Assembly: GCF_040546685.1 (NCBI RefSeq)
Contig: NZ_JBEPOH010000001.1
Span: forward strand, 682,001-746,000
Length of the DNA stretch: 64,000 bases
Reading direction: 5' to 3'
Origin: Variovorax sp. OAS795
Lineage (GTDB): Bacteria > Pseudomonadota > Gammaproteobacteria > Burkholderiales > Burkholderiaceae_C
The position numbers and the translations under genes are program-made. A model generated the notes under the pieces. It saw nothing but the letters and a program-made list of their open reading frames with translations. It ran no database searches and was not told the origin of the DNA. Positions 23,500 to 48,208 of this stretch are shown here, in pieces (within the stretch, counting starts at the first letter, position 1; each line of letters opens with the position of its first letter).

Positions 23500-26247
<2,748 letters not shown>

Positions 26248-29504: not shown

Positions 29505-30704
29505 TCAGTGCCCGCCCGACACCACCACCGGAATCTCGGTCGCTGGCGGCGTGTTGCGGCTGCGGCCGCAGCGCACGATGCCGTCGATCATCACCATGCC
29601 CACGCCCGGGATGTCGCCCAGTCGCACGCTCTCCAGCAGGCCGGGCGCGGGCGAATGCTGCGCGCGGTCCATGAAGACGAAGTCGGCGTCGCGGCCCACT
29701 TCGATGAGCCCGCAGTTCAGCTTGCGGATGCGCGCCGTGTTGCCGGTGGCAAAGCAGAACACCAGCTCGGCCGGAATGTTGGCGATCGACGAGAGCATGG
29801 CCACCATGCGCAGGATGCCCAGCGGCTGCACGCCCGAACCCGCGGGGCCGTCGGTGCCGAGGATCACGCGGTGCGGGCACTTGAGATCGAGCGCAGCCCT
29901 GGCCGCCGCGATGGCGACCTTCTCGTTGCCGTTGTGCACGATCTCGATCGCGCGCGAGCTCTTCTCGCACAGCTCGCACACATGGGCCTCGGGCAGCGAG
30001 GTGTGGCCGCCGTTGATGTGGCCGATGATGTCGGCGTCGGCTTCGAGCACCACGTCCTTGTCGATCAGGCCCGAGCCGGGAATCGACGGGCCACCGGTGT
30101 GGATGGTGCTCTGGATGCCGTACTTGCGCGCCCAGGCCACCATCTCCTTGGCCTCGTAGCCGGCCTTCACCGAGCCCAGGCCCACTTCGCCGAGCAGGCC
30201 CACACCCGCTTCGGCAAGCTCCTTGAAATCGCTCTCGACCATGCCCTTCTCGATGACCGGCGCGCCCGCCAGCACCTTCACGCCGCCGGGGCGGAAATTG
30301 TCGAACGCCCGCTGCGCCGTGATGGCCAGCGCCTTCAGGCCCACGATGTCCTTCGGGCGGCCGGGCAGGTGCACCTCGCCGGCCGAGATCATGGTGGTCA
30401 CGCCACCGTTCATGGTGGAGTCGATCCAGCCGATCTGGCCCTGGCGCGGTGTCCAGTCGCCGAACACCGGGTGCACGTGGCTGTCGATCAGGCCTGGCGC
30501 CACGCAGGTCTGCCTGGCGTCGATGACGGTCTTCGCGCCTTCGAGGTCGCAGTCCTTTTCCTTGCCGACCTGGGTGATCAGGCCGTCGTTCACCACCAGG
30601 GTGTCGGCATCCAGGATGGGCTTGTCGATGTCGCCCGACAGCAGGAGCCCGATGTTCTTTATGACGACTTTGCCCGACTTGGCGCCGGCTGCGATTTCTG
30701 CCAT
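29505..30704 (-). CDS. ena: Enamidase (6-oxo-tetrahydronicotinate amidohydrolase family)
   Basis: A 399-aa amidohydrolase. Metal ligands His76 and His78 are in GLIDSHVHPVFGD; GGVTTMISAGEVHLPGRPKD, IHTGGPSIPGS, HINGGHTS and the C-terminal RCGRSRNTPPATE closely recall the Eubacterium barkeri enamidase, which opens 1,4,5,6-tetrahydro-6-oxonicotinate to 2-formylglutarate plus ammonia. The similarity is recalled, not computed. It sits next to a 6-hydroxynicotinate-reductase gene, the preceding step in that pathway. The start overlaps the tetR gene by 46 bp on the same strand, implying cotranscription with it. Confidence 0.85.
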   Translation of the reverse strand: MAEIAAGAKSGKVVIKNIGLLLSGDIDKPILDADTLVVNDGLITQVGKEKDCDLEGAKTVIDARQTCVAPGLIDSHVHPVFGDWTPRQGQIGWIDSTMNGGVTTMISAGEVHLPGRPKDIVGLKALAITAQRAFDNFRPGGVKVLAGAPVIEKGMVESDFKELAEAGVGLLGEVGLGSVKAGYEAKEMVAWARKYGIQSTIHTGGPSIPGSGLIDKDVVLEADADIIGHINGGHTSLPEAHVCELCEKSSRAIEIVHNGNEKVAIAAARAALDLKCPHRVILGTDGPAGSGVQPLGILRMVAMLSSIANIPAELVFCFATGNTARIRKLNCGLIEVGRDADFVFMDRAQHSPAPGLLESVRLGDIPGVGMVMIDGIVRCGRSRNTPPATEIPVVVSGGH

Positions 30705-31423
30705 TTTGTGTTGTCCTCGTCGTGGGTGTTGTCGGGTGCCTCGTCTGCCGGGACCTCGTCCGCGCGCACGGTGCGCAGCACGGTCTCGATCACGAAGTCT
30801 TCCCAGTGCGTGATCGCCTCGGGCGATTCCAGCGGCTCGCCCAGGAACGCCGTGAGCGTGTGCCGGTTCGAGGTGTAGAAATAGCCCGTGGATGCGATCA
30901 GCAGGTAGATGTCGCGCGCGATCAGCGCCTTGCGGAACAGGCCCTGCGACGCGCCGCTGGCCAGGATCTCGGCAATGATCGCCACCGCCCGCGAAGAGTA
31001 TTCGCGCGCCCGCAGCGACTTCGAGATGTGCCGGCCCTTGTGCAGGTTCTCGGTGTTCAGCAGCGTGACGAACTCGGGGTTCTTGCGGTAGTAGCCCAGC
31101 ACGAAGCGGATCACTTCAGTGAGCGCCTCCACGGGCCGGGAAGCATCGAGCGCGATGGCGGCCTCGGCGTCGTCCATGCGCTTGTAGATGCCCTCGAGCA
31201 CCGCGATGAACAGGCCTTCCTTGCTGCCGAAGTAGTAGTAGATCATCCGGTCGTACGACTTCGCGGCCTTGGAGATCTTCTCCACGCTGCCGCCGTCGTA
31301 GCCGTACCGGGCGAACACCTTGGTCGCCGCCTTCAGGATGCTGTCGCGCGTGGCCTGCGCCGCGGCCTCGCGCACGCCGGTGCGGCGCTGGGGCTTGCCG
31401 TTGGCGGTGCGGCTGTCGGCCAT
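30659..31423 (-). CDS. TetR/AcrR-family transcriptional regulator
   Basis: 254 aa from the ATG at 31423 (an upstream in-frame ATG at 31474 would overlap the ferredoxin reductase gene). The N-terminal helix-turn-helix (about 20-65: DSILKAATKVFARYGYDGGS with SYDRMIYYYFGSKEGLF) is typical TetR. The C-terminal domain resembles the RutR-like C-terminal regulators. The last 46 bp overlap the enamidase start, so it probably controls the nicotinate genes; the paired palindromes at 32381-32435 in the divergent promoter are candidate operators. Confidence 0.88.
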   Translation of the reverse strand: MADSRTANGKPQRRTGVREAAAQATRDSILKAATKVFARYGYDGGSVEKISKAAKSYDRMIYYYFGSKEGLFIAVLEGIYKRMDDAEAAIALDASRPVEALTEVIRFVLGYYRKNPEFVTLLNTENLHKGRHISKSLRAREYSSRAVAIIAEILASGASQGLFRKALIARDIYLLIASTGYFYTSNRHTLTAFLGEPLESPEAITHWEDFVIETVLRTVRADEVPADEAPDNTHDEDNTKWQKSQPAPSRAKSS

Positions 31424-31442
31424 CGTGCGCGCGGTGCCCCGC

Positions 31443-32216
31443 TTATTTTTCGGCGAACGCGCGTTCGACGACAAAGTCGCCCGGCGTGCTCGTGTTGCCT
31501 TCCTTGAAGCCGCGCCCTTCGAGGATGTGCTTCAGGTCCACCAGGAGGCCGGGGCTGCCGCACAGCATCACGCGGTCTTCGACCGGGTTGAGCGGCGGCA
31601 GGCCGAGGTCGTCGGTGAGCTTGTTGGTCGAGATCAGGTCGGTGATGCGGCCCTGGTTGCGGAACTCCTCGCGCGTGACCGTGGGGTAGTAGAGCAGCTG
31701 CTTCTCGACCATCTCGCCCAGGAACTCGTGCTTGGGCAGGTGGTCGGTCACGAGGTCGTGGTAGGCCAGCTCGTCGACCTGGCGCACGCCGTGCACCAGG
31801 ATGACCTGCTCGAACTTCTCGTAGGTCTCAGGGTCGCGGATGATGCTCATGAACGGTGCGAGGCCGGTGCCCGTGCCGAACAGGTACAGGCGCTTGCCCG
31901 GCAGCGTGTAGTCGATCAGCAGCGTGCCGGTGGGCTTGCGGCCCACGATGATGGTGTCGCCGACCTGGATGTGCTGCAGCTTCGAGGTGAGTGGGCCTTC
32001 CTCCACCTTGATGCTCAGGAACTCGAGATGCTCCTCGTAGTTCGGGCTCACGATGCTGTAGGCGCGCAGCAGGGGCTTGTTGTTGACCTTCAGGCCGATC
32101 ATCGTGAAATGACCATTCGAGAAGCGCAGCGCCGGGTCGCGCGTGGTGGTGAAGGTGAACAGGCGGTCGGTCCAGTGGTGGACGCTCAGGACGCGTTCTT
32201 CGCTGAAAGCACTCAT
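31443..32216 (-). CDS. fpr: Ferredoxin/flavodoxin-NADP+ reductase
   Basis: A 257-aa FAD enzyme. FAD-binding RAYSIVSPNYEEHLEFLSIK near residue 52, NADP-binding GTGTGLAPFMSIIRDP near 115, and the C-terminal GDFVVERAFAEK are characteristic of bacterial Fpr (subclass with short FAD site). It passes electrons between NADPH and ferredoxin or flavodoxin. The start is the ATG at 32216, divergent from the 6-hydroxynicotinate reductase gene. Because that reductase uses reduced ferredoxin in E. barkeri, Fpr could be its electron feed here; it may equally be a general housekeeping enzyme. Confidence 0.93.
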   Translation of the reverse strand: MSAFSEERVLSVHHWTDRLFTFTTTRDPALRFSNGHFTMIGLKVNNKPLLRAYSIVSPNYEEHLEFLSIKVEEGPLTSKLQHIQVGDTIIVGRKPTGTLLIDYTLPGKRLYLFGTGTGLAPFMSIIRDPETYEKFEQVILVHGVRQVDELAYHDLVTDHLPKHEFLGEMVEKQLLYYPTVTREEFRNQGRITDLISTNKLTDDLGLPPLNPVEDRVMLCGSPGLLVDLKHILEGRGFKEGNTSTPGDFVVERAFAEK

Positions 32217-32380
32217 ACGGAACTCAAGAGTTGGTTGAACAGTGGAAAGTGGCTGGGCCGGGATGCACGCCTCTGGGGCGTGCATCCATCGGCAGGCTGC
32301 GAACCCTCCATTGTCGTTGGTCGGAAAAACCCCCGAAGCACACCGCGAGAAAACACCATTGCAAGCATCGGGCCTGTTTG

Positions 32381-32401
32381 CTACATTGAGCGCGAATGTA
32401 G
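32381..32401. promoter_or_regulatory. Palindrome A in the fpr-hnr divergent promoter
   Basis: CTACAT-N9-ATGTAG, a perfect 6-bp inverted repeat of 21 bp in the 326-bp gap between divergent genes. The half-site (ATGTAG) resembles that of palindrome B 17 bp further on. Candidate binding site for the nearby TetR regulator; the spacing could also fit another dimeric regulator. Confidence 0.5.
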
Positions 32402-32417
32402 TGAACGCAACATGAAA

Positions 32418-32435
32418 GTGTAGGGAATGCTACAC
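32418..32435. promoter_or_regulatory. Palindrome B in the fpr-hnr divergent promoter
   Basis: GTGTAG-N6-CTACAC, a perfect 6-bp inverted repeat of 18 bp. Together with palindrome A it forms a two-site cluster about 110-160 bp upstream of the hnr start. The rest of the 326-bp gap has no other gene or clear repeat. Confidence 0.55.
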
Positions 32436-32542
32436 AAACGGAAGGCGGCGCACAAGCGGGCGGACGGCACGTTTGTTGCAACCCTTTGCAGACCCGGATA
32501 CCCGACACCGACCCCGCACCACACGCCCACGAGACCGCCCCG

Positions 32543-34159
32543 ATGACCGAACACACCAAGACAGACGGACTGCCCGGCATGGACATGCCGGTGGCCTTCG
32601 ACGCCGGCACTGGCGCCTTCGGCAAGGCGCCGCCGCGCAACGAGCGCATGAGCACCGCCAAGGTCGAGTGCAACGCCTGCCCGGTGCTGTGCCAGATCTC
32701 CGACGGCCGCACCGGCGCCTGCGACCGCTACGCCAACCGCGAAGGCGTGCTGGTGCGTGTCGATCCCGTGGTGCTGCTGCGCCGGCAGATCGCGAGCGAG
32801 GCGCCGGTGCTGGTGCCCTTCGACCGCCCCGCCGCCGAGAAGGCCGAGGACGGCGCGCCCGACTGGAGAGGCGACCTGCTGCACGCCGACGAGGTCTTCG
32901 TCACCGGCGTGGGCTCGTCCACCACCTACCCCGACTACAAGCCCGCGCCTTTCATCGTGGCCTCCAAAGCCCGGGGCGTCGACATGGTCACCGTCGTCAC
33001 CGAAGGCATCTTCAGCTACTGCAGCTTCAAGGTGAAGATCGACACCGACCGCTTCCTCGGCTCCGAGCAGGCCAACGTGCGCTACCGCGGCGAAGTGGTC
33101 GGCCATGTCACCACGGCCGAATACGGCTCGCAGATGCTGTCGCTCGGCGGCGTGCACCACCTCACCGGCGGCAGCAAGAAGGAAGGCCGCATGACGGCCG
33201 AGCTGATGCAGCTCCTGGGCAACAAGAAGGCCGCCGAGTGCACCATCGACGGCGGCTCCACGCTCGTCATCCAGGCCGGCAAGGCGCCCATCGTCAACGG
33301 CGTGGAAGAGCAGCGCATGCGCGTGGGCTGCGGCTCCGCCGCGGTCGGCATCTTCGCGCGCCAGTTCGCGGGTGTGGCCGACGAGGTGGTGGTGGTCGAC
33401 GACCACATCACCGGCGTGCTCACCGAGCACCAGGCCGGCCGCTGCCTCGACATGGCACCTTCGGGCATCCAGATGCTGGGGCGCAAGTCCACGCCGGGGC
33501 GCTACTTCCAGGTGGCGAACCCGGGCAACGGCTGGGGCGGCACCGACATCGCCGATCCGCTCTCGATCATCGAAGGCTGGGAAGAGGGCATCGCGCGGCC
33601 GGGCCTGCGCCTCCTGATGACCTCGACCACCGGCGAGCACGCGCAGTGGTATGTGCTGGACGAGGCGCTGAAGCCGGTCGAACACGAGATGCCGGCCGAG
33701 GTGCGGCGCATCGTCGATCGCATCGGCGAGAACTGCGAACCGTCGCTGTGCACGGTGCTGTTCCTCGGCGGTGCGGGCGGGTCGCTGCGCGCGGGCGTCA
33801 CCGAGAACCCCGTGCTGCTCACGCGCGCGATCAAGCGCGCGCTGGTCAACGTGACCTGCGGCGGCGCGCCGGCCTATGTGTGGCCCGGCGGCGGCATCAC
33901 CGTGATGGCCGACGTCATGCGCATGCCCGACAACAGCTTCGGCACCGTGCCCACGCCGGCCATCGTGGCACCCATCGAGTTCAGCATGCGGCAGGACGAC
34001 TACGCGGCGCTCGGCGGCCACATGGAACACGTCTTCTCGCTCGAGCAGGCGCTCGCGCGCGGCGCGTGGCAGGAAGACGGCGCGCCCTTGTCGCGCCAGT
34101 GGGTCGTCATGGACGACGCCAATCCGTGGCCGCTCGGCCATGCGCCCATGCTGGGCTGA
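32543..34159 (+). CDS. hnr: 6-hydroxynicotinate reductase-like iron-sulfur flavoprotein
   Basis: 538 aa, resembling the E. barkeri enzyme that reduces 6-hydroxynicotinate to 1,4,5,6-tetrahydro-6-oxonicotinate. An N-terminal cluster motif, Cys43-x2-Cys46-x3-Cys50-x9-Cys60 (ECNACPVLCQ), would bind [4Fe-4S]. Later segments include VTEGIFSYCSFKVKIDTDRF, IDGGSTLVIQAGK, GCGSAAVGIFARQF and CGGAPAYVWPGGGITVMADV. The start is the ATG at 32543 with only a weak ribosome site. First gene of a long plus-strand operon; divergent from fpr and close to enamidase, the next enzyme in the pathway. Substrate assignment rests on family recall and that neighbourhood. Confidence 0.8.
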   Translation: MTEHTKTDGLPGMDMPVAFDAGTGAFGKAPPRNERMSTAKVECNACPVLCQISDGRTGACDRYANREGVLVRVDPVVLLRRQIASEAPVLVPFDRPAAEKAEDGAPDWRGDLLHADEVFVTGVGSSTTYPDYKPAPFIVASKARGVDMVTVVTEGIFSYCSFKVKIDTDRFLGSEQANVRYRGEVVGHVTTAEYGSQMLSLGGVHHLTGGSKKEGRMTAELMQLLGNKKAAECTIDGGSTLVIQAGKAPIVNGVEEQRMRVGCGSAAVGIFARQFAGVADEVVVVDDHITGVLTEHQAGRCLDMAPSGIQMLGRKSTPGRYFQVANPGNGWGGTDIADPLSIIEGWEEGIARPGLRLLMTSTTGEHAQWYVLDEALKPVEHEMPAEVRRIVDRIGENCEPSLCTVLFLGGAGGSLRAGVTENPVLLTRAIKRALVNVTCGGAPAYVWPGGGITVMADVMRMPDNSFGTVPTPAIVAPIEFSMRQDDYAALGGHMEHVFSLEQALARGAWQEDGAPLSRQWVVMDDANPWPLGHAPMLG

Positions 34160-34162
34160 ACC

Positions 34163-35065
34163 ATGACCGCCCAACGCGCCGCGCTCGACAAGAACCGCTG
34201 GCACTTCAACCACGGCCCAATCGACATCGTGGCGGAGGCCTACGGCGATACCTACGCCGTGGCCGCCGCGCACGACGCCGCATGGGCGCGCTTCGGCCAT
34301 GTGCTGGACGAACTGGTGCGCGAGCTGCCGCTGCTGCGCCTGCCCGCGAGCGACAACATGCGCCCTCGCGGCGTGGTCGCCAGGCGCATGTGGGACGCCT
34401 GTGCCGCGTTCTCGCCGATGTTCATCACACCCATGGCGGCCGTGGCCGGTTCGGTGGCGCAGGAGCTGATCGCTTTCTACGATCGGCCGGGCATCGAGCG
34501 GGCCTGGATCAACAACGGCGGCGACATCGCGCTGCACCTCGCGCCCGGGCAGTCGGCGCGCGTGGGCGTCTATGCCGACCTGGCGCGCTTCGACTGGCGC
34601 GACAGCGGCATCCTCACCACCGATGGCCAGTTCGAGATCAGCGCCGGCCAGCCGGTGCGCGGCGTGGCCACCAGCGGGTGGCGCGGCCGCAGTTTCTCGC
34701 TGGGCATTGCCGACAGCGTGACCGTGCTCTCCACCACGGCGGCCGCGGCCGATGCCGCCGCCACCGTGATCGCCAATGCCGTCGACGTGGACGATGCCGC
34801 CATCCAGCGGCGCCCCGCCAACACCTGCAAGGACGACAGCGACCTGGGCGACCTTCCGGTCACGGTCGAGGTGCCGCCGCTGGCGCCCGCGCTGGTGGGA
34901 AGCGCGCTGGACAACGGCGCCGCGTGCGCCAGGGCGCTGCAGAAAAACGGGCTCGCCTGGGCTGTCCTGCTCGTTTGCCAGGGGCAGTGGCGACTTGTCG
35001 AACCCTTATGCTCGAAGGCGCTGCCAAAAGTGCCGTCCGATGCAGTTGGTTCAGTATTTGCTTAA
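34163..35065 (+). CDS. UPF0280 family protein (ApbE-like fold)
   Basis: 300 aa. The segment AWINNGGDIALHLAPGQSARVG recalls the NGGD core of ApbE-type flavin transferases, and GVATSGWRGRSFSLGIADSVTVL is typical of UPF0280. ApbE-like proteins attach FMN to targets or handle flavin cofactors. It starts 4 bp after the reductase stop, so the two are tightly coupled; a role in maturing the flavin site of that reductase is a reasonable guess but unproven. Confidence 0.75.
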   Translation: MTAQRAALDKNRWHFNHGPIDIVAEAYGDTYAVAAAHDAAWARFGHVLDELVRELPLLRLPASDNMRPRGVVARRMWDACAAFSPMFITPMAAVAGSVAQELIAFYDRPGIERAWINNGGDIALHLAPGQSARVGVYADLARFDWRDSGILTTDGQFEISAGQPVRGVATSGWRGRSFSLGIADSVTVLSTTAAAADAAATVIANAVDVDDAAIQRRPANTCKDDSDLGDLPVTVEVPPLAPALVGSALDNGAACARALQKNGLAWAVLLVCQGQWRLVEPLCSKALPKVPSDAVGSVFA

Positions 35066-35086
35066 CGAAAAGCAAGGTTCTTTTTC

Positions 35087-35728
35087 ATGATCGATATACG
35101 CCGCGTCTTCACCCATGTCGAGCACATCCACCACGAGTTCGGGCCGCGTGCCGCGACCCCGCTGGTGCGCGGTGCCATCGGCGTGGTGCTGACCAATCCG
35201 TTCGCGGGCCGCTACGAGCCCGACATCCTGCCGATGATGGCGCTGCTCGATCCCGTGGGCGTCGACATGGCGCACCGGCTGCATGCCGCGATGGACGTGC
35301 CGCTCGCGCAGATCGCCACCTACGGCAAGGGCGCCATCGTGGGCGCCGCGGGCGAGCTCGAGCACGGCGCGCTCTGGCATGTGCCCGGCGGCTATGCCAT
35401 GCGCGAACTGCTTGGCTGGAAGGGCGACCGCGCGGCCTACACCGCCGGCAAGGGCGAGGAAAAGACAGGCCAGCCCGGCAATGCGCTCTCCATCGTGCCT
35501 TCGACCAAGAAGGTCGGGCCGCCCGGCGCCGCACTCGACGTGCCGCTCACCAACATCAACGCCAGCTATGTGCGCGGCCAGTTCGACGCCATCGAGGTGC
35601 GCGTGCCCGGTGCGCCAGCGGCCGACGAGATCGTCTTCATCCTGGCGATGAGCACGGGCTACCGCGTGCATGCGCGCGTGGGCGGCCTGCTCGCCAAGGA
35701 CATCAGCAAATGGGACGGCCTGCGCTGA
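35087..35728 (+). CDS. AA_synth (DUF1185) family protein, copy 1
   Basis: 213 aa of the amino-acid-synthesis (PF06684-type) family, whose biochemical role is unknown. Shared family blocks with copy 2: RGAIGVVLTNPFAGRYEPDI, TYGKGAIVGAAGELEHGALW and VPSTKKVGPPGAALDVPLTN, with a C-terminal DEIVFILAMSTGYRVHARVGG. No membrane segment or signal. A gap of 21 bp separates it from the UPF0280 gene and it is likely cotranscribed with hnr. The two copies may form a heteromer. Confidence 0.8.
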   Translation: MIDIRRVFTHVEHIHHEFGPRAATPLVRGAIGVVLTNPFAGRYEPDILPMMALLDPVGVDMAHRLHAAMDVPLAQIATYGKGAIVGAAGELEHGALWHVPGGYAMRELLGWKGDRAAYTAGKGEEKTGQPGNALSIVPSTKKVGPPGAALDVPLTNINASYVRGQFDAIEVRVPGAPAADEIVFILAMSTGYRVHARVGGLLAKDISKWDGLR

Positions 35729-35762
35729 GCCCGATCCCCAGAGACAAGAAGGAACACAAGAC

Positions 35763-36347
35763 ATGACCGCCAACATCCGCAAGCTCGTGATCCAGGTCGA
35801 CGAGACCCGCAAGGAGATGGGCCAGACGATCGATCCGCCCACGCGCCGCGCCGTCGCCATCGCGGTGATCGAGAACCCGTACGCAGGCCGCTTCAGCGAG
35901 AACCTCGACGAGCTGGTCGCCATCGGCGAAGAACTTGGCGCGCTGCTCGGCCAGAAGGCCGTGAAGGCGCTCGGCATCGAACCGGGCCAGGCCCAGAGCT
36001 ACGGCAAGGCCGCCATCGTCGGCGAGAGCGGCGAGCTCGAGCACGCAGCCGCCATCCTGCATCCCAAGCTCGGCGCGCCGCTGCGCGTGGCGGTCGAGAA
36101 GGGCGCGGCGCTCGTGCCCTCGGCCAAGAAGCGCGGCACGCTGGGCACCGCCATCGACGTGCCGCTCGGCCACAAGGATGCCGCCTTCGTGCGCAGCCAC
36201 TTCGACGCCGTCGAGGCGCGCGTGTCCGACGCACCGCGCGCCAACGAGATCGTGGTGGCGGTCGCCGTCACCGACAGCGGCCGTCCGCTGCCCCGCATCG
36301 GCGGGCTGCAGGCGAGCGAAATCAAGGGCGAGGACGGGCTGCGTTGA
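35763..36347 (+). CDS. AA_synth (DUF1185) family protein, copy 2
   Basis: 194 aa, a diverged paralogue of copy 1: RAVAIAVIENPYAGRFSENL, SYGKAAIVGESGELEHAAAI, VPSAKKRGTLGTAIDVPLGH, and ANEIVVAVAVTDSGRPLPRI. The two proteins align along their length with modest identity, so the duplication is old. The ATG at 35763 is used; it lies 34 bp after copy 1. The conserved position between hnr and the importer genes suggests a role in the same pathway, perhaps ring hydrolysis or intermediate handling, but nothing in the sequence proves it. Confidence 0.8.
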   Translation: MTANIRKLVIQVDETRKEMGQTIDPPTRRAVAIAVIENPYAGRFSENLDELVAIGEELGALLGQKAVKALGIEPGQAQSYGKAAIVGESGELEHAAAILHPKLGAPLRVAVEKGAALVPSAKKRGTLGTAIDVPLGHKDAAFVRSHFDAVEARVSDAPRANEIVVAVAVTDSGRPLPRIGGLQASEIKGEDGLR

Positions 36348-36420
36348 ACGTTCCCGCTGCCGCTCGTCCATTCGTGCATTCACAGCGTATCTTTCTCTTT
36401 CGATCCCAAGGAGCTTCCTC

Positions 36421-37626
36421 ATGAACCCATTGCGTCACGTCTTCAGCGCCGCGGCCGTCGCCACCCTGGCCACGGCCCTCGTTCCTGCCCATGCCCAGGG
36501 CGTGATCAAGATCGGCGAGGTGAACAGCTACAAGGCCCAGCCCGCCTTCCTCGAGCCCTACAAGAAGGGCATGGAGCTGGCGGTCGAAGAGATCAACGCC
36601 AAGGGCGGCGTCAACGGCCGCAAGGTCGAGCTCATCACGCGCGACGACAATGCCAACCCCGGCGACGCCGTGCGCGTGGCCGAAGAACTGGTGGCGCGCG
36701 AGAAGATCGACGTGCTCACCGGCACCTTCCTGTCGAACACCGGCCTGGCCGTGGCCGACTTCGCCAAGCAGAAGAAGATCTTCTTCCTGGCCGGCGAACC
36801 GTTGACCGACAAGATGACCTGGCAGGGCGGCAACGAATACACCTTCCGCCTGCGCCCCGGCACCTACATGCAGGCTGCGATGCTGGTGCCCGAAGCGGCC
36901 AAGCTCAAGAAGAAGCGCTGGGCCGTGGTGTACCCCAACTACGAGTATGGCCAATCGGCCGTGGCCGCCTTCAAGACGCTCCTGAAGGCCGCACAGCCCG
37001 ACGTGGAGTTCGTCGCCGAACAGGCGCCGCCGCTCGGCAAGGTCGATGCGGGCGCCGTGGTGCAGGCGCTGGCCGATGCCAAGCCCGACGCCATCTTCAA
37101 CGTGCTGTTCGGCGCCGACCTGTCCAAGTTCGTGCGCGAAGGCAACACCCGCGGCCTCTTCAAGGACCGCACGGTGGTGAGCGTGCTCACCGGCGAGCCC
37201 GAGTACCTCGACCCGCTGAAGGACGAAACGCCCAACGGCTGGATCGTGACCGGCTATCCCTGGTACGGCGTCCAGACGCCCGAGCACAAGGCCTTCTTCC
37301 TCGCGTACCACGCCAAGTACAAGGACTATCCGCGCCTGGGCTCGGTGGTCGGCTACAGCATGATCAAGTCGGTCGCGGCCGGCATCGACAAGGCCAGGAG
37401 CACCGAGACGCCGAAGCTCGTCGCCGCGTTCAAGGGCCTGCAGGTCGACACGCCGTTCGGCAAGATCAGCTACCGCGCCGAAGACCACCAGTCGACCATG
37501 GGCGCCTTCGTCGGCAAGACGAAGAACGAGAACGGCAAGGGCGTGATGGTCGACTACACGTACTTCGACGGCGCGAAGTTCCAGCCGAGCGCCGCCGACG
37601 TCAAGAAGTCCCGCGCGGCCGACTGA
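36421..37626 (+). CDS. Branched-chain-type ABC transporter substrate-binding protein 1
   Basis: 401-aa periplasmic binding protein (Leu/Ile/Val-binding fold, PBP type 1) with a Sec signal peptide (cleavage near HAQG, residue 26). Mature start VIKIGEVNSYKAQPAFLEPYK and NAKGGVNGRKVELITRDDNANP are typical. A strong ribosome site (AAGGAG) precedes the ATG. It lies directly before the fused permease, so it is the primary receptor of this importer. By context the ligand may be nicotinate or a related pyridine carboxylate. Confidence 0.88.
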   Translation: MNPLRHVFSAAAVATLATALVPAHAQGVIKIGEVNSYKAQPAFLEPYKKGMELAVEEINAKGGVNGRKVELITRDDNANPGDAVRVAEELVAREKIDVLTGTFLSNTGLAVADFAKQKKIFFLAGEPLTDKMTWQGGNEYTFRLRPGTYMQAAMLVPEAAKLKKKRWAVVYPNYEYGQSAVAAFKTLLKAAQPDVEFVAEQAPPLGKVDAGAVVQALADAKPDAIFNVLFGADLSKFVREGNTRGLFKDRTVVSVLTGEPEYLDPLKDETPNGWIVTGYPWYGVQTPEHKAFFLAYHAKYKDYPRLGSVVGYSMIKSVAAGIDKARSTETPKLVAAFKGLQVDTPFGKISYRAEDHQSTMGAFVGKTKNENGKGVMVDYTYFDGAKFQPSAADVKKSRAAD

Positions 37627-37653
37627 TCCTTTCTACCCGGAACGCTTGCACCC

Positions 37654-40186: not shown

Positions 40187-40240
40187 AAGCAAAAACTCGA
40201 CAACGATCGAAAGACCTGCGCAGTTCGGAAAGGCCGCCAG

Positions 40241-40276: not shown

Positions 40277-40285
40277 AAGCCAAAC

Positions 40286-41089: not shown

Positions 41090-41820
41090 GCACGCACGAA
41101 ACCCTGCTGCAGGCCAGCGCACTGTGCGCCTGGTACGGCGCCGCGCAGATCCTGTACGACGTCGACCTCGAAGTGCGCCGCGGCGAGGTCGTCGCGCTCA
41201 TGGGGCGCAACGGCGCGGGCAAGTCGACCACGCTCAAGACGCTGATCGGCATGCTGGCCAAGCGCAAGGGCAGCGTGAGCTTCCTCGGCCACGACATCTC
41301 CAGGAGCGAACCGCATCATGCGGCCAAGCTCGGCCTGGGCTTCGTGCCCGAAGACCGGCGCGTGTTCACCGACCTCACGGTGATGGAAAACCTCGAGGTC
41401 GGCAAGCAGCCGCCGCGCCGCTGGGCCGACGGCACCGAGGCGCCGCTGTGGACGCCCGAGCGGCTGTTCAAGCTGTTCCCCAACCTGGGCGAGATGCCCG
41501 ACCGCCCGGGCGGCCGCATGAGCGGCGGCGAGCAGCAGATGCTCACCGTGGCGCGCACGCTCATGGGCAACCCCTACCTGGTGCTGCTCGATGAACCTTC
41601 GGAGGGCGTGGCGCCGGTCATCGTGGAGCAGATGGCCAACATGATCCTGGAGCTCAAGGCGCAGGGCGTGAGCATCCTGCTGTCGGAACAGAACATGCAT
41701 TTTGCCGAGCTGGTGTCCGACCGGGCCTATGTGCTCGAGAAGGGCCAGATCCGCTACCACGCCACCATGGCGGAGCTCGCGGCCAACGAAGAGGTGCGCC
41801 GCGCCTACCTGAGCGTCTAG
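41086..41820 (+). CDS. ABC transporter ATP-binding protein (LivF family)
   Basis: 244 aa. Walker A GRNGAGKSTTLKTL near residue 45, GLGFVPEDRRVFTDLTVMENL (LivF hallmark), signature MSGGEQQMLTVARTL, Walker B VLLDEPSEGVAPVIVEQ, and LLSEQNMHFAELVSD where the usual switch histidine is Gln, as is normal for this family. Translationally coupled to the LivG-like gene. Completes a LivHM-G-F importer. Confidence 0.92.
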   Translation: MSTHETLLQASALCAWYGAAQILYDVDLEVRRGEVVALMGRNGAGKSTTLKTLIGMLAKRKGSVSFLGHDISRSEPHHAAKLGLGFVPEDRRVFTDLTVMENLEVGKQPPRRWADGTEAPLWTPERLFKLFPNLGEMPDRPGGRMSGGEQQMLTVARTLMGNPYLVLLDEPSEGVAPVIVEQMANMILELKAQGVSILLSEQNMHFAELVSDRAYVLEKGQIRYHATMAELAANEEVRRAYLSV

Positions 41821-41868
41821 CGCGGCGCGCACGCCTTTGCTTTTTCTCGTCAACCACCGGAGCACACC

Positions 41869-42591
41869 ATGCACGACTCGCACCGCAGATCCCTTCTGAA
41901 GTCCACGGCCGCATTGAGCTTGCTCGGTGCGACCGGAACATTGTTCGCAGCCTCGAAGCTCAAGCCCAACGACAAGTCGGCGCTGATCGTCATCGACGTG
42001 CAGAACTGCTTCGTCGATGGCGGCACGCTGCCCGTGAAAGGTGGCGCCGAGGTGGTGCCGGTGATCAACAAGCTGGCCGAGTCGTTCGAGAACATCGTGG
42101 TCACGCAGGACTGGCACACGCAGGGCCACGCATCGTTCGCGAGCGCACACGCTGGCCAGAAGCCGTTCAGCAGCATCAAGCTCTCGTACGGCAACCAGGT
42201 GCTCTGGCCCGACCACTGCGTGCAAGGCACCGACGACGCGGCGCTGCACAAGGACCTGAAGCTCCCCACCGCGCAGGTCATCGTCCGCAAGGGCTTCCAC
42301 AAGGGCGTGGACAGCTACTCCGCTTTCGAGGAGGCCGACCGCAAGACCGCCACCGGCCTGGGCGGCTACCTCAAGCAGCGCGGCATCAAGACGGTGTACG
42401 TGGCGGGCCTCGCCACCGACTTTTGCGTGGCCTGGACCGCGCTCGATGCGCGCAAGGCCGGCTTCGAGGTCTACGTGATCGAGGACGCCACGCGCGCCAT
42501 CGACCTCAACGGCTCGCTCGCCGCGGCATGGAAGCAGATGACGGCCAAGGGCGTCAAGCGCATCCAGTCCACCGACATCCTGGCCGCCTGA
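41869..42591 (+). CDS. Exported nicotinamidase (PncA-like isochorismatase family)
   Basis: 240 aa. The N-terminus has HRRSLLKSTAALSLLGATG, a Tat-like twin-arginine signal, so the enzyme should fold in the cytoplasm and be exported. The catalytic triad is Asp43 (VIDVQNCFVDGG), Lys141 (VRKGFHKG) and nucleophile Cys186 (GLATDFCVAW); metal-site residues fit Asp81, His83, His87 and His116 (TQDWHTQGH, WPDHCVQGT). These are the nicotinamidase/pyrazinamidase motifs, so it should convert nicotinamide to nicotinate outside the cytoplasm. Its place between the importer and a second binding protein suggests it supplies nicotinate for uptake. Ordinary PncA is cytosolic. Confidence 0.87.
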   Translation: MHDSHRRSLLKSTAALSLLGATGTLFAASKLKPNDKSALIVIDVQNCFVDGGTLPVKGGAEVVPVINKLAESFENIVVTQDWHTQGHASFASAHAGQKPFSSIKLSYGNQVLWPDHCVQGTDDAALHKDLKLPTAQVIVRKGFHKGVDSYSAFEEADRKTATGLGGYLKQRGIKTVYVAGLATDFCVAWTALDARKAGFEVYVIEDATRAIDLNGSLAAAWKQMTAKGVKRIQSTDILAA

Positions 42592-42662
42592 GCACGCGTC
42601 CCGCCCACCGCGTTGATCACCCCCGCATCCACAACAACGACAGCAAAGAGCTTGACGACGCA

Positions 42663-43823
42663 ATGACGATTTCGATTTCAAGGCGCACCCTGGTGGCGGG
42701 CGGCGCAGCCCTGGCCGTGGGCCCCGGTCTTCTGGGTTCGGCGCGTGCCAATAACGGCGTGACCGACAGCCTCATCCGCATCGGCCAGTCGGCCGTGTTC
42801 AGCGGCCCGGCGAAGGACTTCGGCGTCGACTACCGTGCGGGCATCAAGCTTTATTTCGACCGGGTCAACAGGTCCGGCGGCATCAACGGCCGCAAGATCG
42901 AGCTCGTCTCGTACGACGATGCCTACGACCCTGCGAAGACGGCCGCCAACACGGCCAAGCTGATCGATGAGGACAAGGTCTTCGCGCTCGCGGGCTTCGT
43001 CGCCACCGGCAACCTCGCGGCCGCGATGCCGCTGGCCGAGAAGGCCGGCGTGCCCATGTTCGCGCCGCTGGTGGGCACCACCTCGTTCCGAACCAAGGTC
43101 AACCGCCTGCTGTTCCACGTGCGCGCGGGCTACGACCTGGAGCTTCGCAAGATCATCAGCCATCTCTCGACCATCGGCATCTCGTCGCTCGCGGTGGTCT
43201 ACCAGGACAGCGCCTTCGGCAAGTCGAACCTCGCCACCTGCGAGCAGCTGGCCGCCGACTACAAGGTGCAGGTGACCAAGACGCTGCCGCTCGCCATCGC
43301 GGCCGAGGACGCGAAGCAGGTGGTCGCCAGCCTGGCCGACACGAAGCCCGGCGCGGTGCTGATGATCATGGCCGGCCGCATGGTCGAGGTGTTCATGCGC
43401 GACTACCGCGCCAACGGCGTGGGCGCGCCGCTCTACACGCTGTCGGTCGGCATCACCGACGCGGCGGGGTCCGCGAAGCGGCTCGACGGCAAGCTCGCGG
43501 GCCTGGTCACGGCCAGCATCGTGCCGCCGCCGCAGGCCCTGCGCGTACCCATCGTGGCCGATTACCAGCGCGACCGCGCCGAGTTTGGCGAGAAGATCGA
43601 CAGCTACACCACGCTCGAAGGCTACATCGCCTCGCGCGTGATGGTCGAAGGCCTGCGCCGCGCGGGCAAGACGCTCACGCGCGACAGCTTCATTGCCGGC
43701 CTCGAAGGCATCGGCAGCACGCGCTTCGGCGACTTTCCGATCGACTACAGCGCGAAGAACCACAACGGCTCGACCTTCGTGGACCTGGAGATGTACACCC
43801 GTGACGGCCAGTTGCGGCGCTGA
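42663..43823 (+). CDS. Branched-chain-type ABC transporter substrate-binding protein 2
   Basis: 386 aa PBP-type-1 protein with a twin-arginine signal (ISRRTLVAGGAALAVG, residues 5-20). Mature domain starts LIRIGQSAVFSGPAKDFGVD and has GGINGRKIELVSYDDAYDPA. No permease or ATPase lies next to it apart from the LivHM-G-F set upstream, so it probably delivers a second ligand to that importer. The nicA start codon lies inside its last codons. Confidence 0.87.
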   Translation: MTISISRRTLVAGGAALAVGPGLLGSARANNGVTDSLIRIGQSAVFSGPAKDFGVDYRAGIKLYFDRVNRSGGINGRKIELVSYDDAYDPAKTAANTAKLIDEDKVFALAGFVATGNLAAAMPLAEKAGVPMFAPLVGTTSFRTKVNRLLFHVRAGYDLELRKIISHLSTIGISSLAVVYQDSAFGKSNLATCEQLAADYKVQVTKTLPLAIAAEDAKQVVASLADTKPGAVLMIMAGRMVEVFMRDYRANGVGAPLYTLSVGITDAAGSAKRLDGKLAGLVTASIVPPPQALRVPIVADYQRDRAEFGEKIDSYTTLEGYIASRVMVEGLRRAGKTLTRDSFIAGLEGIGSTRFGDFPIDYSAKNHNGSTFVDLEMYTRDGQLRR

Positions 43824-44301
43824 GCCGCTGCACCTCGAGGTCAACGGACAGGCCTGTTCGATCCCGGGCGTGCCGCGCGAGGCCACGCTGCTGCACCTCT
43901 TGCGCAACGACCTGGGCCTGAACGGGCCCAAGTACGGCTGCGGCCTGGGCCAGTGCGGCGCATGCACCGTGCACGTCGACGGCGTGGCGGCGCGTGCCTG
44001 CGTGATTCCCGCGCATGGCGTGGCGGGCCGCGCCATCACCACGCTCGAAGGCCTGGGCACGCGCGGGCGCTGGCACCCCGTGCAGGCCGCCTTCGAGGAC
44101 GCGCAGGCCGCGCAGTGCGGCTATTGCCTCAACGGCATGGTGATGCAGGCCACGGCGCTGCTCGCGCGCGATCCGCAGGCGAGCGAGGCGCGGATTCGCA
44201 GCGAGCTGTCGGGCAACCTGTGCCGATGCGGGACGCACATCGAAATCCTGGACGCGGTGCAGCGTGCCGCGGTGCGCATGCGCGCGGAGACAAACCGATG
44301 A
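43801..44301 (+). CDS. nicA: Nicotinate hydroxylase small subunit, [2Fe-2S] protein
   Basis: 166 aa from a GTG inside the upstream gene (23-bp overlap); other starts are further in. Xanthine-oxidase-family small subunit with two [2Fe-2S] sites: Cys47, Cys52, Cys55, Cys67 (YGCGLGQCGACTVHVDG) and Cys106, Cys109, Cys141, Cys143 (QCGYCLNGM, GNLCRCGTH). With NicB it hydroxylates nicotinate to 6-hydroxynicotinate, passing electrons to haem. Homologous isoquinoline or aldehyde oxidoreductases look alike; the pathway context favours nicotinate. Its TGA overlaps an ATG (44298) that now leads only into a repeat. Confidence 0.82.
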   Translation: MTASCGAEPLHLEVNGQACSIPGVPREATLLHLLRNDLGLNGPKYGCGLGQCGACTVHVDGVAARACVIPAHGVAGRAITTLEGLGTRGRWHPVQAAFEDAQAAQCGYCLNGMVMQATALLARDPQASEARIRSELSGNLCRCGTHIEILDAVQRAAVRMRAETNR

Positions 44302-44318
44302 GCAGCCCGTCATCTTGT

Positions 44319-44439
44319 CCCCTCTCCCTGTCTTGTCCCCTCTCCCTCCGGGAGAGGGCTAGGGTGAGGGCATCGGCCTTCGCCCAAGCATCGCCCCCGC
44401 AGGCCCTCACCCCAACCCTCTCCCAGAGGGAGAGGGAGC
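44319..44439. repeat. REP-like doublet between nicA and nicB
   Basis: Two inverted half units, CCCCTCTCCCTCCGGGAGAG... (44337-44370) and CCCTCACCCCAACCCTCTCC... (44404-44439), with an extra truncated copy of the first at 44319-44335. Together they form a BIME-like doublet. The element follows the ATGA overlap at 44298, from which only a 50-codon repeat-encoded frame can be read before a stop at 44447-44449. Confidence 0.85.
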
Positions 44440-44446
44440 AAGAACC

Positions 44447-47400
44447 ATGACGCGGCGCGCCGATCTGCCGCGCACCCGCGCGGACTTTCTCTCGGCCGAC
44501 GGCGTCCTGCTCGTCGTGCGCGAAACCCCGCCCGCACCGCCGCCCGCCAAGGGCCAGCCCACGGCCGTGGCCGGCAACCCCGCCGAAGGCGACGAGATCC
44601 TGCTGGCCGTGTGGGACGACGGCAGCGCATCGGCGCTCAACGGCCACGTCGACCTGGGCACCGGCATCCAGACCGCGCTCGCGCAGATCGTGGCCGAAGA
44701 GCTCGACCTCGGCATGCCCTGCGTGCGCATGATGCTCGGCGACACGGCGCGCGCGCCCAACCAGGGTGCGACGATCGCCAGCGCCTCGATCCAGATCCAT
44801 TCGCAGCCGCTGCGCCTGGCCGCGGCACAGGCGCGCGCGTGGCTGCTCGCGCGCGCGGCCGATCGGCTCGGAGTCGCAGTGCAAGCGCTGCAGGTGCGCA
44901 ACGGTGTCGTGCGCTTGGCCGAGGAACCCGACCGCCGCATCGACTACGCCGACCTCGTTGCGGGCCAACGCACCGTGCTGCGCCTGGACCCGCATGCACA
45001 GCCCAAGGCACCGGCCGACTACCGCATCGTCGGCACGCGCCAGGCGCGCGTGGACATACCCGCCAAGCTCGCGGGCGAGAGCGTGTTCGTGCACGACATG
45101 CGCGTGCCCGGCATGCTGCATGGCCGCGTGGTGCGCCCGCCGTATGCGGGCGCCGACCATGGCGAATTCATCGGCAACACGCTCGATGCGGTCGACGAAT
45201 CGTCGATCGCGCACATCCCCGGCATTCGCGCCGTGGTCGTGGTCCGCGATTTCGTCGGCATCGTGGCCGAGCGCGAAGAGCACGCGGAGCAGGCGCTGCG
45301 CGAACTGCGCGTCACCTGGAAGCCCTGGCCCGGCATGCCGGACCTGTCCGACCTGGCGCAGGCCCTGCGCGACAACCCGTCGACCCAGCGCCTGCTCGTC
45401 GATGAGGGCGACGTCGATGGCGCACTGGCCGCGGCCGCGCAGCCGATGCACCGCACCTACGTGTGGCCTTACCAGATGCACGCGTCCATCGGCCCTTCGT
45501 GCGCGCTGGCGGATTGGCAGCCCCGGGACGGCAGCGGCATGCAGCTGCGCGTATGGGCCGGCTCGCAGAACCCGCACGTGCTTCGCGCCGATCTTGCAAA
45601 GCTCATGGGCGTGGACGACGTGCAGGTCGATGTCGTCCGCATGGAAGCCGCGGGCTGCTACGGCCGCAACGGCGCCGACGACGTGGCGGCCGATGCCGCG
45701 CTGCTCGCGCGTGCCGTGGGAGCGCCGGTGCGCGTGCAGCTCACGCGCGAGCAGGAGCATGCATGGGAGCCCAAGGGCGCCGCGCAGCTGATGGAGGTCG
45801 ATGGCGGGCTCATGGCCGACGGCCGCATCGCCGCCTACGACTTCGAGACTTCCTATCCATCCAACGGTGCGCCGACGCTCGCACTGCTGCTCACGCGCAC
45901 CATCGAGCCCGTGGCGCAGGCTTTCGAAATGGGCGACCGCACGGCGCGCCCGCCCTACAGCGTCGACAACCTGCGCGTGAAGGTCAACGACATGGCGCCG
46001 ATCGTGCGCGCCTCGTGGCTGCGCGGCGTGTCGGCGCTGCCGAGTTCGTTCGCACACGAGTCGTACATCGACGAACTGGCCACTGCCGCGGGCGTCGATC
46101 CGGTGCAGTTCCGCCTGCGCCACCTGAACGATCCGCGCGCCGTCGAGCTGGTGCAGGCCACCGCGCAGAAAGCTGGCTGGCGCATGCGCACCGGCCCTCA
46201 GGAGAACGCCGACGGCGGCCTGGGCGAGGGCGGCGACATCCTCTTTGGCCAGGGCTTTGCTTATGCGCGCTACATCCACAGCAAGTGGCCCGGCTTCGGC
46301 GCCGCATGGGCCGCCTGGGTGGCCGATGTCGAGGTCAACCGCAAGACCGGCGAGGTGCACGTGCGCCGCGTGGTGGTGGGGCATGACGCGGGACTGATGA
46401 TCAACCCCGCGGGGGTCGAGCACCAGGTGCACGGCAACGTGATCCAGACCACCAGCCGCGCACTCAAGGAAGAGGTGCGGTTCGCGCCGCAGCAGGGCGC
46501 GGCAAACGGCGGGCCGCAGCTGCCCGGCGTGCTGCCCTCCGGCGTGGTCGCGAGCCGCGAGTGGGGCAGCTACCCGATCATCAACTTCCGCGAAGTTCCG
46601 GTGGTCGAGATCATGCACATGCCGCGGCCCGGTGAGCCGTCGCTGGGCGCGGGCGAGTCGTCGTCGGTGCCGGGCACGGCGGCGATTGCGAATGCGATCT
46701 TCGATGCGACCGGCGTGCGGTTTCGCGAGCCGCCGTTCACGGCGGAGAAGGTGCTGGCGGCGCTCCGTCCCTTGACCTCGGATTTGCCCCCTCTCCCTCC
46801 GGGAGAGGGTTGGGGTGAGGGCGAGCGGCCTGCGAATAGAGACGCCGTCGCACCCTCATCCCAACCTTCTCCCAGAGGGAGAAGGAGCAATACAGCATGG
46901 CCGCAGCGCAAGGGCCTCCTCGCCACAGGCGCCGCCCTCTTCATCGGCGGCATCGGCCTCATCGCCGGCCTGCTCGGCTGGCGCTCCGCCATCGCCCCGG
47001 TCTCGCTCAGTGCGCCGGTCTACAGCCAGGCCACCGTCGAACGCGGCCGGGTGCTCGCCGCGCTCGGCGACTGCGCCGTGTGCCACACCGCAGCGGGTGG
47101 CGCGCCCAACGCGGGCGGCCGCGCGATGGAGACGCCCTTCGGCACGCTCTACACCACCAACCTCACGCCCGATGCCGACACGGGCCTCGGCCGCTGGTCG
47201 TTCAGCGCCTTCCAGCGCGCGATGCGCGAAGGCGTCTCGCGCGACGGCCATCACCTGTACCCCGCGTTCCCGTACACCGCGTTCGCAAAGACCAGCGACG
47301 ACGACCTGCAGGCGCTCTATGCGTACTTCATGTCCATGCCCGCGGTGCGCGCCGAGACGCCGAAGGCCGAGCTGAAATTTCCGTTCAGCATGCGGCCGCT

Positions 47401-48208
47401 CATGGCCGGATGGAACGCGCTCTTCCATGACCCGGCGCCCTTGCAGCCGGTGGCCGCGCAGAACGCGGAATGGAACCGCGGCGCCTACCTCGTCAACGGC
47501 CTGGGCCATTGCGGCGCGTGCCACACGCCGCGCAACGCGCTCGGCGCGGAGCAGGGCGGCAGCGCCTTCCTCTCGGGCGCGATGGTCGAGGGCTGGGAGG
47601 CACCGGCGCTCACCGGGCTTTCGAAGTCAGCCGTGCCATGGGATGCCGACGAGCTGTACCGCTACCTGCGCCAGGGCCACACCCGGCGCCACGGCATCGC
47701 AGGCGGACCGATGGCCGAGGTGGTGCGCGAACTCGCCGAGGTGCCCGATGCCGACGTGCGCGCCATGGCCACCTACCTGGCCTCTTTCGATCCCGCGCCG
47801 GCAGCGCAGCCGCAGGCCGTGGCGCAGCAGGCGGTCGACACCGCCGCACGCACGCAGGGCCAGCTGCTCGGCCCGGCGCAGCGCATGTTCGACAGCGCCT
47901 GCGCGTCGTGCCATCACGACGGCGACGGCCCCACGCTGCTGGGTGTGAACACGCCGCTCGCGCTCAACAGCAACCTCACGAGCGCGCGGCCCGACAACCT
48001 GCTGCGCACCATCCTCGATGGCGTGCGAGAGCCCGCGAGCCGCGGCATCGGCTTCATGCCGGCCTTCCGCGAGGCGCTCGACGACCGGCAGGTCGCCGAA
48101 CTCGCGGGCTACATGCGCGCGCGCTTCGCGCCGCAGGAGCCGGCGTGGAAGAACCTGCCGGCGGAGGTGGCGCGCGTGCGTGCCGCGCGCGGGCATGGCG
48201 CGCCATAG
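44447..48208 (+). CDS. nicB: Nicotinate hydroxylase large subunit: molybdopterin domains fused to tri-haem cytochrome c
   Basis: 1253 aa. Residues ~1-780 are the molybdenum hydroxylase part (NGHVDLGTGIQTALAQIVAE, hammerhead-like IPAKLAGESVFVHDMRVPGM near 205, MEAAGCYGRNGADDVAADAA, GAGESSSVPGTAAIANAIFD). Residues ~781-815 are encoded by a REP-like doublet; a membrane helix follows (about 823-846), then three c-type haem motifs, CAVCH at 876, CGACH at 1022 and CASCH at 1152. This matches the NicB layout of Pseudomonas putida, where electrons leave to the respiratory chain through the haems. The domain topology implies a cytochrome region on the periplasmic side. The original start may have been the ATGA at 44298. 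Confidence 0.85.
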   Translation: MTRRADLPRTRADFLSADGVLLVVRETPPAPPPAKGQPTAVAGNPAEGDEILLAVWDDGSASALNGHVDLGTGIQTALAQIVAEELDLGMPCVRMMLGDTARAPNQGATIASASIQIHSQPLRLAAAQARAWLLARAADRLGVAVQALQVRNGVVRLAEEPDRRIDYADLVAGQRTVLRLDPHAQPKAPADYRIVGTRQARVDIPAKLAGESVFVHDMRVPGMLHGRVVRPPYAGADHGEFIGNTLDAVDESSIAHIPGIRAVVVVRDFVGIVAEREEHAEQALRELRVTWKPWPGMPDLSDLAQALRDNPSTQRLLVDEGDVDGALAAAAQPMHRTYVWPYQMHASIGPSCALADWQPRDGSGMQLRVWAGSQNPHVLRADLAKLMGVDDVQVDVVRMEAAGCYGRNGADDVAADAALLARAVGAPVRVQLTREQEHAWEPKGAAQLMEVDGGLMADGRIAAYDFETSYPSNGAPTLALLLTRTIEPVAQAFEMGDRTARPPYSVDNLRVKVNDMAPIVRASWLRGVSALPSSFAHESYIDELATAAGVDPVQFRLRHLNDPRAVELVQATAQKAGWRMRTGPQENADGGLGEGGDILFGQGFAYARYIHSKWPGFGAAWAAWVADVEVNRKTGEVHVRRVVVGHDAGLMINPAGVEHQVHGNVIQTTSRALKEEVRFAPQQGAANGGPQLPGVLPSGVVASREWGSYPIINFREVPVVEIMHMPRPGEPSLGAGESSSVPGTAAIANAIFDATGVRFREPPFTAEKVLAALRPLTSDLPPLPPGEGWGEGERPANRDAVAPSSQPSPRGRRSNTAWPQRKGLLATGAALFIGGIGLIAGLLGWRSAIAPVSLSAPVYSQATVERGRVLAALGDCAVCHTAAGGAPNAGGRAMETPFGTLYTTNLTPDADTGLGRWSFSAFQRAMREGVSRDGHHLYPAFPYTAFAKTSDDDLQALYAYFMSMPAVRAETPKAELKFPFSMRPLMAGWNALFHDPAPLQPVAAQNAEWNRGAYLVNGLGHCGACHTPRNALGAEQGGSAFLSGAMVEGWEAPALTGLSKSAVPWDADELYRYLRQGHTRRHGIAGGPMAEVVRELAEVPDADVRAMATYLASFDPAPAAQPQAVAQQAVDTAARTQGQLLGPAQRMFDSACASCHHDGDGPTLLGVNTPLALNSNLTSARPDNLLRTILDGVREPASRGIGFMPAFREALDDRQVAELAGYMRARFAPQEPAWKNLPAEVARVRAARGHGAP
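46787..46888. repeat. REP-like doublet lying in frame inside nicB
   Basis: Half units CCCCCTCTCCCTCCGGGAGA... (46787-46821) and CCCTCATCCCAACCTTCTCC... (46853-46888) are inverted copies of the same unit family as at 44.3 kb. They are translated as a Pro/Gly/Arg-rich linker (LPPLPPGEGWGEGE, SSQPSPRGRRS) between the molybdopterin part and the membrane helix, with no stop codon. An ATG with GGAG at 46897 follows the element. Confidence 0.87.

Follow-up and report, generated by a model that had tools for sequence, protein, structure and literature searches.

A probable nicotinamide and nicotinate catabolic island in Variovorax sp. OAS795 and the pairing of its 6-hydroxynicotinate reductase with the uncharacterised family UPF0280

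Introduction

The nic pathway of Pseudomonas consists of NicAB, NicC, NicX and NicD. In Eubacterium barkeri the nicotinate hydroxylase is a selenium enzyme not known to contain haem, and the later steps of degradation include 2-hydroxymethylglutarate and methyleneglutarate mutase. We examined a 64,000 bp stretch of DNA (the window; contig NZ_JBEPOH010000001.1, positions 682,001 to 746,000) from Variovorax sp. OAS795, whose 6.09 Mb genome is in two contigs. Two divergent gene runs at 29505-49482 of the window include genes for a NicAB-type hydroxylase, a 6-hydroxynicotinate reductase (Hnr), an enamidase and a protein of the uncharacterised family UPF0280 (COG2122).

Nicotinate clusters have been described in Azorhizobium caulinodans (AZC_2804-2790), Bradyrhizobium japonicum USDA110, Rhodopseudomonas palustris HaA2 and Bradyrhizobiaceae strain SG-6C, and these clusters were located using the E. 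barkeri genes (PMC3511419, 2012; here and below for the portions of the paper available to us). The SG-6C Hnr is named there and is 42% identical to that of E. barkeri, and the route in A. caulinodans runs via tetrahydro-oxonicotinate to glutarate (PMC3511419). That respiratory hydroxylation can be combined with ring reduction is already known, since these portions show such clusters in several relatives, and the Variovorax locus is therefore by itself ordinary. A preliminary description of the locus had held that the gene set of the reductive route was poorly described in aerobes and that the pathway ended in 2-formylglutarate; both statements need correction, given that the cluster had been shown in PMC3511419 and that in Azorhizobium the carbon continues to glutarate. 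What the locus does provide is a tie between the widespread COG2122 family and one defined enzyme with one sulfur-free chemistry, and the function of the family is thereby testable by two-gene co-expression.

Results

Genes of the proposed pathway

The minus-strand run (32285 to 29505) comprises genes for an Fpr-like reductase, a TetR-family regulator and the enamidase. The plus-strand run (32486-49482) begins with Hnr, UPF0280 and two AA_synth genes, continues with a substrate-binding protein, a fused permease, two ATPases and then nicotinamidase, and ends with a second substrate-binding protein, NicA, NicB and a protein of the fumarylacetoacetate hydrolase (FAH) fold. The genes assigned to the pathway are as follows.

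29505-30704, minus strand: enamidase (Ena), PDB 2VUN, E = 1e-107; predicted hydrolytic ring opening of tetrahydro-6-oxonicotinate
31443-32285, minus strand: Fpr-like ferredoxin--NADP reductase, NF008178 at 136 bits, below the cut-off of 390; proposed electron source of Hnr
32486-34159, plus strand: 6-hydroxynicotinate reductase (Hnr), from named homologues; conserved core starts at 32648
34163-35065, plus strand: UPF0280/COG2122, ApbE superfamily, NF003322 at 397 bits, above the cut-off of 290; proposed to mature Hnr or transfer its flavin
35087-35728, plus strand: AA_synth (PF06684) paralogue 1, Pfam E = 5.8e-62
35670-36347, plus strand: AA_synth (PF06684) paralogue 2, Pfam E = 1.9e-71; family domain starts near 35775
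41869-42591, plus strand: nicotinamidase (nicotinamide to nicotinate), NF008623 at 181.7 bits, above the cut-off of 174
43693-44301, plus strand: NicA, subunit of nicotinate hydroxylase with two [2Fe-2S] clusters, Fer2_2 E = 5.7e-27 and Fer2
44447-48208, plus strand: NicB, molybdopterin subunit carrying three cytochrome c haem sites at its C-terminus; MoCoBD_1, MoCoBD_2, Cytochrom_C and three CxxCH

The enamidase matched 2VUN (annotated ENAMIDASE) with 364 bits over 380 residues (phmmer), the runner-up being a hydantoinase at E = 1e-5, and it was 47% identical to the E. barkeri protein (tblastn). Pfam (E ≤ 0.001) and the PDB (E ≤ 10) gave no match to Hnr; the protein was about 95% identical to Variovorax proteins named 6-hydroxynicotinate reductase and about 40% identical to the E. 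barkeri Hnr, which lies near the enamidase in that genome. With the 2VUN sequence as query we retrieved the genome of E. barkeri and ten other loci, the last of which (L069) is weakly matched at 25% and has no Hnr. The E. barkeri locus (L059) combines enamidase, AA_synth, Hnr, UPF0280 and a NicA-like subunit within a span of 10 kb. The CxxCH motifs of NicB, exactly three, are at residues 876, 1022 and 1152, and in the PDB comparison the protein matched the E. barkeri-type nicotinate dehydrogenase 3HRD and the cytochrome c subunit 8GY3. Matches of this strength lie well outside chance, and the genes also occur together in other genomes; the identification was therefore taken as real. The preliminary description had named NicA with a tri-haem NicB in the Pseudomonas layout, an Hnr-like protein and an enamidase of the E. 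barkeri kind, and all three were recovered; the coupling of respiratory hydroxylation to reductive dearomatisation that it proposed agrees with the gene content, including electrons to cytochrome c and hydrolytic ring opening.

From the gene identities, their order and their domain content we infer the following activities and electron route. Nicotinate would be taken up by the ATP-binding cassette (ABC) transporter or produced from nicotinamide by the nicotinamidase, and NicAB would hydroxylate it at C6, passing the electrons via three haems into the respiratory chain. Hnr would then reduce 6-hydroxynicotinate to 1,4,5,6-tetrahydro-6-oxonicotinate with NADPH electrons delivered via the Fpr-like reductase, and the enamidase would open the ring to give 2-formylglutarate and ammonia. 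UPF0280, encoded directly 3' of Hnr, would most likely mature Hnr by flavin attachment or loading. The locus is thus very probably a nicotinamide and nicotinate catabolic island in which oxidation is followed by ring reduction.

UPF0280 accompanies Hnr

In a survey of 397 Pseudomonadota genomes Hnr was found in 38, and UPF0280, counted above 190 bits, in exactly those 38; six other genomes held weak UPF0280 matches only (<24 bits). UPF0280 lay directly downstream of Hnr on the same strand in all 38 genomes, the two matched stretches being 6 to 503 bp apart. UPF0280 (20/20) and AA_synth (19/20), both passed over in the preliminary description, were among the most conserved neighbours in the Pseudomonadota Hnr loci. 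A second survey covered 197 genomes from the phylum of G403 (Deltaproteobacteria), with Hnr counted as full or long matches. Here Hnr was present in 35 genomes, UPF0280 above 170 bits in 35 and both in 34, and UPF0280 adjoined Hnr at 33 of the 37 Hnr places. In the sole Hnr genome without a high-scoring UPF0280 (G528) the contig ends just after Hnr. UPF0280 is a near-obligate partner of Hnr. In the same set DUF39 was found in 134 genomes, any UPF0280 in 140 and both in 133; the 170-bit line between the UPF0280 kinds was drawn after the scores had been seen, and the listed matches drop from 174 to 92 bits.

The AA_synth paralogues stand in tandem at 35087-36347, and the family is also found beside Hnr in E. 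barkeri. Paralogue 2 matched PDB 2QTP (E = 8e-86) and also 3BYQ, both uncharacterised structures. AA_synth is a conserved component, and its role is probably the same in aerobes and anaerobes.

A cysteine motif at residues 8-28 of Hnr (counted from 32648), C-x2-C-x3-C...C, drew weak matches (<25 bits) in 31 Hnr-less genomes. Many of the open reading frames (ORFs) concerned are near 340 amino acids, and they may be radical-SAM proteins in which a similar motif stands at the N-terminus. In G016 (L043 near 9300-10800) Hnr is split into two overlapping matches, as if frameshifted.

Predicted fold of UPF0280

The AlphaFold2 model of UPF0280 had a predicted local distance difference test score (pLDDT) of 85 and matched FMN transferases over its full length, so that on the predicted structure the protein has an ApbE fold. 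Identity to the ApbE/FmnB FAD:protein FMN transferases in the structural alignment was 13-18%, and 44/44 UPF0280 relatives matched the ApbE model at E ≤ 0.1 (best 4.4e-7). The E. barkeri Hnr is reported (Alhapel 2006) to contain a flavin in covalent linkage together with one [2Fe-2S] and two [4Fe-4S] clusters; the ferredoxin domain at the N-terminus of its sequence is consistent with the two [4Fe-4S]. Flavin maturation is the simplest reading because a dedicated ApbE-fold protein adjoins what is reportedly a covalent flavoprotein, and we give an even chance that UPF0280 acts as a flavin transferase or loader for Hnr.

Kinship between Hnr and DUF39 (PF01837) was considered from an eyeballed VDVVT..T match and aligned against DUF39 from 29 of 32 loci (L090, L097 and L110 left out). 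The hhalign probability was below 1%, and the idea was dropped because in hidden Markov model scoring the real sequences scored like reversed or shuffled decoys.

Electron supply of Hnr in aerobes and anaerobes

An N-terminal two-cluster [4Fe-4S] ferredoxin domain was absent from the window Hnr and from that of all 38 Pseudomonadota Hnr genomes. It was present in 9/9 N-terminally complete Hnr proteins of the E. barkeri search and in 8/10 Hnr loci of a second set, the other two (L123, L125) being unscored as the core motif was not found; the L068 genome counts in both sets. The Fpr-like reductase, divergent from Hnr in the window, turned up near Hnr in 17 of the 38 Hnr genomes, as judged from the fetched stretches (of unequal reach), and its next best match in its own genome was 30% identical. 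A search of the 20 loci and the window for a separate ferredoxin near Hnr, by common forms of the [4Fe-4S] motif in ORFs >70 codons, gave L050 and L052 alone. NADPH as the Hnr donor, directly or through ferredoxin, fits these results, since Hnr is without the ferredoxin domain and the Fpr-like gene nearby is without a close copy elsewhere in the genome. An enzyme of strict anaerobes thus differs in aerobes, where it has no ferredoxin domain and often an NADPH reductase nearby.

Variation in hydroxylase type and possibly in ring opener

NicB with cytochrome c was present in 7 of the 20 Pseudomonadota loci (L039, L040, L041, L044, L052, L053, L058). A gene of an FAD-subunit family, of which the L042 member alone was scanned (FAD_binding_5), lay beside a NicA-like gene in 12 (L042, L043, L045, L046, L048-L051, L054-L057), and L047 had neither type in its stretch. 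With NicB-cytochrome c in some loci and the FAD subunit in others, the reductive module is therefore joined to either hydroxylase.

An enamidase at ≥60% identity was confined to Hnr genomes, 23 of the 38 having one (kinship ignored); two Hnr-less genomes have a relative at 41-42%. No enamidase was detected at E ≤ 1e-40 in the other 15, where an initial look scored no more than four candidates per genome. HyuA was sought in the fetched stretches, which reach roughly 2 to 20 kb to either side, not in whole genomes. A homologue 57-67% identical to the L046 HyuA, or that protein itself, lay no more than about 10 kb from Hnr in nine of the 15 enamidase-less genomes (L043, L046-L049, L053, L054, L172/L173, L177) and in none of the 23 enamidase genomes, an exclusion with a Fisher's exact p of 3e-5 when kinship is ignored; the remaining six of the 15 had no HyuA in these stretches. 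HyuA divergently adjoins the Fpr-like gene in L177, L173 and L049, a place that the enamidase occupies in L044, L058 and L184, and HyuB follows HyuA in L177, L049 and L053. Within genus g130, enamidase was found in G122 and G170 and HyuA in G055 and G158. Judged from these gene arrangements, it is possible that an ATP-dependent HyuAB hydantoinase/oxoprolinase replaces the enamidase in some aerobes, which makes HyuAB a candidate second way to open the reduced ring.

Other features of the window

The remaining genes of the two runs are listed below.

30659-31474, minus strand: TetR-family regulator (TetR_C_29, RutR-like), Pfam E = 1.5e-38; RutR model score below its cut-off
36178-37626, plus strand: ABC importer substrate-binding protein 1, PF13458 E = 1.2e-71
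37654-39576, plus strand: ABC importer fused LivH-LivM-type permease, PF02653 in two stretches; UrtB and UrtC models, one per half
40070-41089, plus strand: ABC importer ATPase, LivG-type, PF00005 E = 2.4e-33, NF008449; homology from residue 73, near 40286
41089-41820, plus strand: ABC importer ATPase, LivF-type; approximate start, frame of ORF 40624-41820, ABC motifs visible in the translation
42423-43823, plus strand: ABC importer substrate-binding protein 2, PF13458 E = 1.1e-59
48295-49482, plus strand: FAH-fold protein, uncertain member, PDB 9KKT E = 3.8e-129; soon 3' of NicB

ORF 41124-41594 was rejected as a conserved gene, being LivF read out of frame. The FAH-fold gene, considered as a 2-formylglutarate decarboxylase, was placed outside the conserved core because among the loci searched it recurs only in L132, from the same genus. 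About 700 bp (39577-40285) separate the permease from LivG; the related locus L039 is without this stretch and has LivG directly after the permease, and ORF 39573-40289 had no family match in the library scans. Elsewhere the window carries type VI secretion-like genes at 50992-60762 (VgrG, DUF4123, a VasX-N-domain protein, two tandem DUF6708 and a DotU-domain protein) and, at 11672-20938, histidine utilisation genes (regulator, aromatic amino acid lyase, urocanase, amidohydrolases and formylglutamate amidohydrolase) with a homocysteine S-methyltransferase gene after them; a MetH-like gene lies at 23380-26247.

Discussion

If the enzymes of the locus acted mainly on another pyridine or N-heterocycle, such as a substituted nicotinate, the generally broad substrate range of molybdenum hydroxylases and amidohydrolases would be in keeping with it, as would SG-6C, which runs 6-chloronicotinate through the reductive nicotinate route after dechlorination (PMC3511419). 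However, a nicotinamidase above its curated cut-off sits in the same gene run, the enamidase and Hnr match E. barkeri enzymes, and the like cluster in SG-6C was itself interpreted as nicotinate catabolism (PMC3511419), which leaves another substrate improbable. Still less probable, and to our minds barely credible, is that 6-hydroxynicotinate is oxidised by a NicC-type monooxygenase encoded elsewhere while Hnr and Ena serve another purpose. The absence of such an enzyme, as claimed in the preliminary description, holds for the window, where there was no FAD_binding_3 match; no further Pseudomonas-type nic gene was seen among the window ORFs scanned, NicX having had no dedicated search. Genome-wide there are 39 FAD_binding_3 matches, and absence of NicC is likely, not proven, because nine of these proteins were scanned and one was compared with the PDB. 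None of the nine matched a NicC-named model, the presence of which in the library was unchecked. The one compared (L151) moderately matched NicC 5EOW (164 bits) but was nearer to tropone monooxygenase (222 bits), and Hnr, Ena and NicAB share one island.

A more serious alternative, though one that we consider unlikely, is that UPF0280 handles no flavin and helps its partner enzyme with Fe-S assembly or with chemistry of sulfur or persulfide, the kind of role put forward for COG2122 with DUF39. Homocysteine synthesis requires COG2122 alongside DUF39 and NIL/ferredoxin, and one cysteine of DUF39 bears a persulfide (PMC5764234, in the portions available). In line with such a role, 133 of the 134 DUF39 genomes also hold UPF0280, and conserved Hnr cysteines resemble Fe-S ligands. 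On the other hand, hydroxynicotinate reduction involves no sulfur chemistry, and the predicted UPF0280 fold matches FMN transferases along its whole length. In addition, UPF0280 exceeds 170 bits in 34/35 Hnr genomes and the UPF0280 matches listed below these are under 93 bits, a score split from which we conclude that Hnr and DUF39 go with distinct UPF0280 kinds.

Several observations weigh against the proposed pathway or against UPF0280 as flavin transferase or loader for Hnr. No gene for 2-formylglutarate decarboxylation or glutarate use was identified at the locus, and for 21/38 Hnr genomes the fetched stretches showed no Fpr-like gene. The window UPF0280 scored 18.3 bits with the curated ApbE model, below the cut-off of 25.6, the canonical ApbE target motif was found in 0/18 Hnr sequences scanned, and the covalent flavin of the E. 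barkeri Hnr is a reported feature. UPF0280 occurs with neither Hnr nor DUF39 in four of the 197 genomes, and in G563, a genome without Hnr, a high-scoring UPF0280 (L129:7598-8464) lies beside a TRAP transporter, possibly a third partner. The adjacency of Hnr and UPF0280 may also reflect operon inheritance, as the counts ignore kinship.

More broadly, it is conceivable, though somewhat doubtful, that COG2122/UPF0280 proteins are flavin transferases dedicated to ferredoxin-linked enzymes (Hnr and maybe DUF39, whose flavin is still unseen) and that HyuAB replaces enamidase in some aerobes. The literature searched, with most subscription journals outside it, held no mention of UPF0280, nor of ApbE together with "hydroxynicotin-", and enamidase and 6-hydroxynicotinate reductase were not found together in it. 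In the literature found, which came from no search joining COG2122 to nicotinate, COG2122 was linked only to homocysteine synthesis (PMC5764234, same portions).

Features in which the Variovorax locus may differ from the A. caulinodans and SG-6C clusters are its two divergent runs, TetR regulator, Fpr-like reductase and nicotinamidase. With the Pseudomonas nic pathway it has in common NicA and a NicB with a C-terminal cytochrome c domain; there the ring is oxygenated via NicC, whereas in Variovorax, with no NicC-type match in the window, it would be reduced instead. The ApbE/FmnB transferases have a known canonical target motif that is missing from the Hnr sequences scanned. Hnr has no detectable sequence homology to DUF39 (HcyBio) of the NIL/ferredoxin-COG2122 system, yet the arrangement in Acetobacterium (L131) is alike, with COG2122 beside a partner enzyme and a NIL/two-cluster ferredoxin. 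The Variovorax and E. barkeri clusters are alike in combining Hnr, UPF0280, AA_synth and enamidase, but of the two Hnr proteins only that of E. barkeri bears a two-cluster ferredoxin domain at its N-terminus.

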